Assembly: GCA_902635515.1 (NCBI GenBank)
Contig: CACPOD010000005.1
Span: 1 to 64,000, forward strand
Direction: 5' to 3'
Source of the DNA: an uncultured Pelagibacteraceae bacterium
Lineage (GTDB): Bacteria > Pseudomonadota > Alphaproteobacteria > Pelagibacterales > Pelagibacteraceae
DNA length: 64,000 nt
A program made the position numbers and the translations under genes. The notes beneath the pieces were generated by a model that worked only from the letters and a program-made list of their open reading frames with translations, had not been told where the DNA came from and did no database searches. Below are positions 38,641-40,542 of this stretch, piece by piece (position 1 is the stretch's first letter; the number at the start of each line of letters is the position of its first letter).

Positions 38641-40464
38641 GTGGAAAGAATAATTACAAAATCATTTGCTAGACTTATGGGTCGTGGTACTCATAGAGGC
38701 TTCATAACTCATGAAGAACTGAGTAAGTCGTTAGGAAAAAGAAATCTTTCAGATGAAAATTTAGCTCAGGCATTTATTCATATTTTAGATGAAAATATTT
38801 CACTAGTAGAAAAAAAATCTGATTTTAAAGTTTTAAGAAAAAAAGAAAATTCAAATAAAGAAGAAGGTAAAACAATAGAAAAAAGTGACGATCCTATTCG
38901 TATGTATCTCAGAGAAATGGGTGGAGTTGAGTTACTTTCAAGAGAAGGTGAAATAGCAATTGCTAAAAGAATAGAAGCTGGAAAAGATGTAATGTTAATT
39001 GCACTTTCTCAAAGTCCAATTACAGCTCAACAATTTTTTGAATGGAATGAGCAGTTACATAAGGATGAAATTCTTGTTAGAGAAATTATTGATATTGATA
39101 CAAATTATATGGAAGATGAGTCAACCGGTCCAAGCGCTAAGCAAAAAAATGCAGGAGAGTCAGATAAGGAGGAAGGTTCTTCAGATGAGGATGATGATTT
39201 TAATCCAACTTTAGCAGCAATGGAGACTGAAATAAAACCTAAAGTTTTAAAAACAATAAACGTGCTTACAAAAGAGTATTCTAAGTTAATTAAATATCAA
39301 AAAGAAAAACTTGAATGCATTTTAAATTCTCAAAATTTTTCTCCAGCAAAAGAGAAAGGATATGAAAAAATTGTTAATGATATTTTGGAAAATATTAAAT
39401 CTTTGCAATTATCCCCGTCAGTTTTGGAAGATTTAGTTCAAAAACATTATGTAGAGAATAAAAAAATTATTTCATTGGAAGGAAATCTTTTAAGACTTGC
39501 TATGGATCATAAAATTTCAAGGAACGAGTTTATTAAATTTTATGTAGGAAACGAAATTAATCCAAATCTCAGAAAGTTTTTGGATACAAACTCAATATGG
39601 AAACAATTTTTTAGCAAATATAAAGATGAGTTTAAAAATATTCGGGAAAGATTAATTGAAATAAGTCATAAACTTGGAATTTCAGTTACTGATTTTAAAA
39701 AATTGGTTAGCAGAATTCAAAAGGGTGAAAAAGAGTCAAGAATTGCAAAAAAAGAAATGGTTGAAGCAAACTTGAGGTTAGTTATTTCAATTGCTAAAAA
39801 ATATACAAATAGAGGTCTACAGTTTCTAGATTTAATTCAGGAGGGAAATATCGGATTAATGAAAGCAGTAGATAAGTTTGAATATAGAAGAGGCTATAAA
39901 TTTTCAACTTATGCAACTTGGTGGATTAGACAAGCGATTACTAGATCAATTGCTGACCAAGCAAGAACAATTAGAATACCTGTACACATGATTGAAACAA
40001 TCAATAAGATAGTTAGAACTCAAAGATTAATTTTAAGTGAATTTGGTAGAGAAGCTACTCCAGAGGAATTAGCTAAAAAATTAAGAATGCCATTGGATAA
40101 AGTGCGAAAAGTTCTAAAAATTTCTAAAGAACCCGTTTCGTTAGAAAAACCAGTGGGAGATGAAGAAGATAGTAGTTTAGGAGATTTCATTGAGGATACA
40201 AAAGCTTTAGCCCCACTAGAACAGGCTATTAAATCAAATTTAGGTGAAGCTACAACTAAAATTTTATCTACGCTTACGCCTAGAGAGGAAAGAGTTTTAA
40301 GAATGAGATTTGGTGTAGGAATGAACACTGATCATACATTAGAGGAAGTAGGGCTGCAGTTTTCTGTAACAAGGGAGAGAATCAGACAAATTGAGGCAAA
40401 GGCACTTAGAAAGCTGAAACACCCTAGTAGATCAAAACAACTAAAAAGTTTTTTAGAAAGTTAA
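38641..40464 (+). CDS. rpoD: RNA polymerase sigma factor RpoD (sigma-70)
   Basis: A 607-residue primary sigma factor starting at GTG. Region 1.2 is [12 protein letters not shown] near residue 82. Region 2 has [11 protein letters not shown] and [19 protein letters not shown], with the -10-binding segment [14 protein letters not shown]. Region 4 ends with [17 protein letters not shown] less conserved acidic insert (residues about 165-195) lies between 1.2 and 2. It follows dnaG by 67 bp and precedes tRNA-Val by 3 bp. Confidence 0.97.
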
Positions 40465-40467
40465 TTT

Positions 40468-40542
40468 GGGCCGTTAGCTCAATAGTAGAGTACTGCATTG
40501 ACATTGCAGGGGTAGTTGGAGCGTAACCAACACGGCCCACCA
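40468..40542 (+). tRNA. tRNA-Val (anticodon GAC) with atypical D/T loops
   Basis: A 75-nt cloverleaf directly after rpoD. Acceptor GGGCCGT (40468-40474) pairs fully with ACGGCCC (40532-40538), followed by discriminator A and encoded CCA. The anticodon stem CTGCA/TGCAG closes loop TTGACAT, anticodon GAC (40500-40502). The T stem GTTGG/CCAAC is perfect, but the T loop is AGCGTAA rather than TTCRANY. The D loop AATAGTA lacks the G18-G19 pair (reads A-G), and position 48 is A. Stems argue for a folded RNA; the altered elbow may mean a degenerate or lineage-specific tRNA. Confidence 0.88.

Follow-up and report, generated by a model that had tools for sequence, protein, structure and literature searches.

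Standard teaching holds two contacts of the tRNA elbow, G18-psi55 and U54-A58, to be almost invariant. The eukaryotic initiator tRNA has A60 and keeps U55 and G18, and the staphylococcal peptidoglycan tRNA-Gly, which is dedicated to cell-wall synthesis, has altered contacts between the D and T loops. Suppressor tRNAs are said to have been selected from D- and T-loop libraries in work by Zagryadskaya in 2003, Doyon in 2004 and Kotlova in 2007, and Zagryadskaya and co-workers reportedly found that G54-G58 works in such selected suppressors. The review PMC7912444 describes an elbow in which U54-A58 stacks on G53-C61, nucleotides 59 and 60 are flipped out and G18 is stacked between 57 and 58, and gives A54, with A54-A58, for the eukaryotic initiator. 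According to an excerpt of PMC4810234, the face of G19-C56 is read by the ribosomal L1 stalk and by RNase P, and some metazoan mitochondrial tRNAs are without elbow structure.

Among the matches listed in a literature search that reaches few subscription journals, no title concerns SAR11 tRNA elbows or A18/G55. A study of SAR11 tRNA signatures (PMC3937112) does not mention T-loop, A54, T-arm, U55, tRNAVal or elbow in the text available to us, and an excerpt of it states that sequences with unusual secondary structures were removed by the authors. Here we describe a tRNA-Val(GAC) gene with a rewired elbow in a stretch of 64,000 nucleotides (hereafter the window) from an uncultured Pelagibacteraceae bacterium, and compare it with tRNAs of related genomes and phages. 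We assign the genome to SAR11 through its MurA, which matches records of Pelagibacteraceae and Ca. Pelagibacter.

The tRNA-Val(GAC) gene and its site behind rpoD

The features of the locus are as follows.

38641..40464, + strand: rpoD (sigma-70) open reading frame, with its stop codon 3 bases 5' of the tRNA-Val
40468..40542, + strand: tRNA-Val(GAC) with rewired elbow and encoded CCA (sequence, ARAGORN, Rfam)
40481..40487, + strand: D loop AATAGTA, read as A14 A15 U16 A18 G19 U20 A21
40484, + strand: A18 instead of G18, within the D loop
40498..40504, + strand: anticodon loop TTGACAT with anticodon GAC
40510..40514, + strand: variable loop GGGTA, its A48 opposite A15 without a Levitt pair
40520..40526, + strand: T loop AGCGTAA, read as A54 G55 C56 G57 U58 A59 A60, not UUCRANY
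40540..40542, + strand: encoded CCA

The gene (40468-40542) reads GGGCCGT TA GCTC AATAGTA GAGT A from the acceptor to the D arm, CTGCA TTGACAT TGCAG GGGTA through the anticodon arm and variable loop, and GTTGG AGCGTAA CCAAC ACGGCCC A CCA from the T arm to the 3' end. A sequence-only reading of this DNA had described four paired stems with CCA and anticodon GAC and had proposed Infernal-type scoring; indeed, the 21 stem pairs are all present (10-25 as G-T), ARAGORN calls tRNA-Val(gac) at the same coordinates, and the score against the Rfam tRNA family RF00005 is 53.6 bits, above the gathering score of 29, which places the gene in that family. The odd loop bases it had listed are likewise in the sequence: by Sprinzl numbering, with the D loop numbered by alignment to normal SAR11 Val tRNAs, the gene has A at 54, G at 55, T at 58, A at 60, A at 18, G at 19, C at 56 and A at both 15 and 48. 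A canonical elbow, defined by UUCRANY together with G18G19, is replaced here by AGCGTAA with A18G19. The R15-Y48 Levitt pair gives way to A15/A48, unlike in the variant Phe and Thr tRNAs described below, which retain G15/C48. The canonical outer pair G19-C56 is present and, as had been claimed, is the sole canonical one among the contacts noted in that reading.

BLAST searches with the 75 bases found a match in 114 of 151 genomes of the same genus: in 95, the window's own included, all bases are unchanged, and 19 match less closely. Many of the 37 genomes without a match are incomplete. A sequencing error or a local mutation is ruled out by the 95 identical copies. The T loop AGCGTAA is common to the orthologues, and the Val genes of diverged relatives differ in their stems and mostly retain the loops, a few having a normal elbow. 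Across 15 distinct A18/G55 Val sequences both sides have changed in 13 of the 21 stem pairs without a single unpaired cell, the D stem being invariant. The relaxed constraint of a pseudogene is not found in a gene with such identity and such compensatory stem changes.

Orthologues downstream of rpoD had been named as a check, normal loops there being taken for a sign of local mutation or error. They are mostly rewired: among Val loci fetched with flanks, duplicates removed, rpoD lies 1-21 bases upstream of 57 of 83 rewired genes (17 are without rpoD, and in 9 the stretch is too short). However, rpoD also precedes five of the six normal-elbow genes, four at 1-8 bases and one at 252. Since rpoD stands upstream of both types, normal and rewired elbows alternate at one site, and a normal tRNA-Val behind rpoD reflects a switch between elbow types that are each complete and should not be taken for a local mutation. 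A general Val pattern matched 196 of 248 genomes in a search of the order; among the matches listed, the 23 rows of the group f2 are all normal (AGTGGTA ... TTC), and rows of the own genus are nearly all rewired, a few being normal. The window tRNA-Val is thus a real, conserved and rewired tRNA, which is not decaying and is a member of a larger set.

Rewired elbows and linked changes in SAR11 tRNAs

To survey this set we used a cloverleaf scanner that makes no selection on T-loop letters or positions 18 and 19 and requires an encoded CCA and good stems. It returned 406 matches in 1.28 Mb of retrieved loci, some of which overlap, and none in 0.95 Mb of mononucleotide-shuffled sequence; its set is incomplete because of the CCA and stem requirements, and ARAGORN added 17 distinct sequences. 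Rewired elbows occur in the SAR11 tRNAs for Val, Phe, His and Thr, and for Tyr in the sister genus g4. The window's own genome has tRNA-His with T loop AGCGTTA and A18, tRNA-Phe with TGCGATT and A18, and tRNA-Thr(GGT) with TTAGATT and U19, giving U19-A56. In relatives, Thr(GGT) also occurs with TGCAAGT and A18, with GTCAGTA or ATCATTA and GG, and with TTTGATT and A19 (giving A19-U56), and His with GGCAGAA and A18. No odd elbow was found in 26 other anticodons, each with 1-5 distinct sequences, in loci L001-L210.

Genome-wide, the odd tRNAs are Val, Phe and Thr among the 32 tRNAs, all read, of the complete genome G012 of the own genus, Val and Tyr among 30 in the complete g4 genome G346, and Phe alone among 28 in G236 (g5, 98% complete); the 33 tRNAs of G209 (g3, 99% complete) include no odd elbow. 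The rewired tRNA-Phe of G012 and G236 and the rewired tRNA-Tyr of G346 are single-copy and essential. Because those of G012 and G346 are single-copy in complete genomes, their elbows must, with near certainty, serve translation; the rewired Val and His tRNAs likely do so as well. The window's draft genome (29 tRNAs, 83% complete) yielded one tRNA-His, the rewired one. In the same draft, tRNA-Val(TAC), tRNA-Asp and a third tRNA-Met were not found, probably owing to an assembly gap, since Val(TAC) and Asp are neighbours in G012, a complete relative (L088).

The Phe G55 pattern has matches in 207 of 397 genomes of the order, exclusively in genera g1, g5 and g6. Across 386 Alphaproteobacteria genomes it matched in 62, three of which are Pelagibacterales with the tRNA. 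From each of 20 of the 59 others one match was retrieved (mostly chosen for G at base 53), and neither Rfam nor ARAGORN recognised a tRNA in any of them; the rest were assessed by their letters as listed, and the exclusion is accordingly a partial one, covering one isoacceptor. One genome of the same genus has a further match to the pattern, at G439:C3:50376-50404, whose stem differs and which may be a tRNA or chance.

The Thr(GGT), Phe and His tRNAs stand within 5 kb of one another (L130:4319-9401) in a neighbourhood of murA, hisD and hisS, where they frequently switch type between relatives, like a tRNA exchange site. The tRNA-His (L130:9328-9401) lies directly upstream of hisS and overlaps a mechanically called ORF that starts at TTG, upstream of a later ATG.

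The changes at the elbow positions are linked. Among 212 distinct SAR11 tRNAs from the scanner, positions 18/55 are G/T in 175 and A/G in 37, without mixing (one of the 37, Tyr of L295, was registered by hand, its A18 set by alignment to the normal Tyr loop). Positions 54/58/60 are T/A/Y (Y being T or C) in 174, A/T/A in 21 and G/G/A in 17, which accounts for every row, and 19/56 is G/C apart from one T/A and one A/T. These rows are related, and the counts are not counts of independent events; it is safer to count isoacceptors, of which five in SAR11 show A18/G55 and three the 54-58-60 change. Moreover, the T arms of Val and His are sometimes identical (GTAGGAGCGTAACCTAC), so that gene conversion may have spread loops among some isoacceptors, which would then not be independent. 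An intermediate tRNA-Val in G370, which has A18/G55 together with normal T54-A58, indicates that the 18-55 and 54-58 modules can change separately.

The 17 ARAGORN-only sequences obey the 18-55 rule as well (two with G55 and AG, 15 with T55 and GG), and three of them violate the 54-58-60 rule, which in its strict form is true of the 212 scanner rows and had to be given up for the enlarged set. The exceptions are a Phe gene that occurs in two forms, in L163, L185, L188 and L165, with T loop TTCGTTT (T/T/T), and His with ATCGTGG (A/T/G) in L184. The TTCGTTT tRNA-Phe (L163:9135-9209 and the other three loci) has a quite different body and GG in its D loop, sits at the usual Phe site, and fits none of the linked 54-58-60 types, nor the normal one. 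A Watson-Crick pair 20-55 extending 19-56 was also considered, but the sequences neither require nor show it: most G55 tRNAs have U or C at position 20 and two distinct Val sequences have A, and U or C stands there in normal tRNAs too. Taken as a whole, the rewired elbow looks like a different working elbow, not like breakage.

Phage tRNAs, modification enzymes and alternative explanations

Similar loops occur in viruses. Viral contigs chosen by T-arm patterns gave 59 loci with 432 distinct tRNAs (ARAGORN), of which 33 combine a D-loop AG with G55 (22 contain the search words, 11 do not); GG with G55 was found in none of the 432. Positions 54/58/60 are freer there than in SAR11, including, for example, A/A/A in five, T/A/A in six and T/A/G in four. 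Twelve phage regions, chosen by similarity and hence not suited to deriving a rate, hold 183 distinct tRNAs: two have A18/G55 (Leu and Val of Brevundimonas phage Kikimora), three have A54/U58/A60 (the tRNA-Phe of Bacillus BM15, Klebsiella KB57 and Pseudomonas Boevelstad) and three have A19-U56 or U19-A56. As exceptions to the linkage, a few phage D loops without GG occur together with T55 (e.g. L450 Met, KB57 Pro). The tRNA-Phe of Klebsiella phage vB_KpnM_KB57 (L472:5976-6047) has T loop ATCGTTA and bears the annotation 'tRNA-Pseudo-GAA'; its stems pair and its CCA is encoded, and the same elbow type in the tRNA-Phe of two other phages suggests that it works.

Could the rewired elbows have been brought in, or be maintained, by phage tRNA exchange, perhaps through their evasion of enzymes that recognise a normal elbow? 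Viral contigs and named phages have the same loop solutions, even in tRNA-Val(GAC), where AGCGTAA occurs in L461, L463 and L466, and TGCGATT in Brevundimonas phage Kikimora. Furthermore, a viral tRNA-Thr(GGT) at L459:12331-12405 (contig IMGVR_UViG_3300044491_003096) is one D-loop base from that of SAR11 locus L197, which we regard as a hint of exchange, whichever way it went; the viral tRNA array around it has ORFs of G+C-rich appearance. Elbow states are also patchy on a MurA tree (81 loci, one gene, a quick method and midpoint rooting), requiring at least 7 changes for Phe (64 rows scored), 8 for His (68) and 11 for Thr (73). However, the bodies of the viral Val(GAC) genes differ from that of the window gene, of which the viral sequence searches returned no copy despite the shared T loop; both Val elbow types sit behind rpoD; and the phage tRNAs seen are mostly normal. 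We consider this explanation possible though rather doubtful, and any advantage of such elbows to phages is speculation.

A second explanation starts from the modification enzymes. TruB (TIGR00431), the psi55 synthase, was not found in any of 34 genomes of the own genus (g1), five of g5 and four of g6, nor in the single genomes of g7 (86% complete) and g9 (83% complete). It is present in 5/5 genomes of g4, 4/4 of g2, 4/4 of g3, 1/1 of g8 and 7/10 of f2, the three misses being genomes 54-79% complete; the search gave a signal in all 14 control genomes, over the cut-off in 10. In the window's genome (G000:C2, L402) and in G012, rbfA-rpsO-pnp are contiguous and truB is absent from the operon, which reads rbfA-truB-rpsO-pnp in G346 and G209. 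For U54 the search covered the TrmA and TrmFO families. TrmFO exceeded the cut-off in none of 69 genomes (control: 7 of 14); weaker matches in 66, nearly all to one stretch of ORFs of ~620-650 amino acids, are taken for MnmG. TrmA exceeded it in none of 29, with weak matches in three (control: 1 of 14).

If the loss of psi55 and m5U54 had made the loop bases nearly neutral, the variants would be drift without replacement contacts. This would suit the enzyme absences of the own genus, the restriction of the Phe G55 matches to g1, g5 and g6, whose sampled members are without TruB, and the few loops outside any linked rule (TTCGTTT, ATCGTGG). It is at odds with the confinement of nearly all variants to a few discrete linked combinations and with the normal elbows of the 26 other anticodons. 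Mollicutes without TruB keep U55, which again speaks against drift. SAR11 is not alone in this respect, since an excerpt of PMC4014445 reports TruB missing in some Mollicutes. The g4 genomes G346 and G292 have truB and yet carry a G55 Val, G346 a G55 Tyr as well. We consequently judge drift an unlikely explanation. The g4 genomes also rule out truB loss as a strict precondition; together with the single g7 and g9 genomes, which have neither truB nor a Phe G55 match, they leave enzyme loss best seen as permissive, and the link between rewired elbows and modification as a loose one. The reduced modification raised by the sequence-only reading hence stands for this molecule, which lacks U54 and U55 in a genus where truB was not found and TrmA and TrmFO stay under the cut-off, and falls as a sole cause.

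That the gene might encode a tRNA specialised for work outside translation, as the staphylococcal cell-wall tRNA-Gly is, would fit the altered elbow and the second tRNA-Val of the complete relative. Nevertheless, the same rewiring in the sole tRNA-Phe or tRNA-Tyr of complete genomes and the intact elongator frame make it very improbable; the look for a partner gene covered the neighbouring ORFs. Weakest is the earlier proposal of a decaying gene, which would drift because tRNA-Val(UAC) reads the GUN codons (G012 does have a normal-elbow Val(TAC)): it is hardly tenable, being refuted by the identity in 95/151 genomes, the compensatory stem changes and the rewiring of non-redundant, single-copy Phe and Tyr tRNAs.

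A probable substitute elbow and its relation to known systems

We consider it probable that the tRNA-Val(GAC) is a working elongator that keeps its L shape through alternative, covarying elbow contacts, a reading that draws on the observed sequence, conservation, covariation and gene absence. The new elbow that had earlier been offered as one option is supported by conservation, by stem covariation and by the linked 18-55 and 54-58-60 changes in several isoacceptors. An A18-G55 contact would stand in place of G18-psi55, and A54-U58 (G54-G58 in relatives) in place of the U54-A58 trans Watson-Crick/Hoogsteen pair, a replacement nearly always accompanied by A60 where a pyrimidine is usual. The Watson-Crick pair on the outside, 19-56, is retained as a pair. 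What follows on the geometry of the new contacts is inferred, as are the use in translation and the part played by the lost modifications. A54-U58 or G54-G58 may form an equivalent pair, perhaps with exchanged edges, and A60 would follow because position 60 packs against the altered 54-58 pair. A18, still a purine, could hold the stacked position while G55 contacts it; such a purine-purine pairing would count against our explanation. The absence of TruB in the own genus and the sampled g5 and g6, with no TrmA or TrmFO over the cut-off in the order, probably loosened selection for U54 and U55 but was no strict precondition.

SAR11 core tRNAs (Val, Phe, His, Thr and, in g4, Tyr) and some phage tRNAs share this small set of solutions. 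Going further, we lean slightly towards the view that nature holds at least three interchangeable elbow modules (A18-G55; A54-U58 or G54-G58 with A60; U19-A56 or A19-U56), which recur in many isoacceptors, among essential tRNAs of SAR11 as well as phage tRNAs, and that this genus has dispensed with the known T54 and psi55 enzymes, leaving TPsiC arms without T or psi. Conserved tRNAs of an abundant ocean bacterium with covarying substitutes amount to a natural solution set for testing what an elbow needs, and lineages with and without psi55 synthase make the purpose of psi55 and T54 testable by comparison. In practice, rewired tRNA genes risk being labelled 'odd' or 'pseudo', like the phage tRNA-Phe with ATCGTTA.

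Set against the canonical bacterial elongator tRNA-Val(GAC) of RF00005, the window tRNA shares the cloverleaf, the anticodon, G19-C56, G53-C61, U8, A14 and the encoded CCA. It differs in lacking G18, U54, U55, A58, Y60 and the 15-48 Levitt pair, and offers no substrate base to TruB or the m5U54 enzymes. With the eukaryotic initiator it has in common A54 in place of U54, and A60; the initiator keeps A58, whereas SAR11 has A-U or G-G at 54-58 and A-G at 18-55. As in the metazoan mitochondrial tRNAs without elbow structure, the usual elbow has been departed from; in SAR11, however, the helices are intact and the usual bases are replaced by covarying others. Like the staphylococcal tRNA-Gly it is a bacterial tRNA with altered D/T contacts, but there is no sign of a cell-wall role for SAR11 Val. 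In the library suppressors, G54-G58 and other purine pairs can reportedly replace U54-A58; those, however, are laboratory selections, whereas the SAR11 variants are natural, conserved and present in essential tRNAs.
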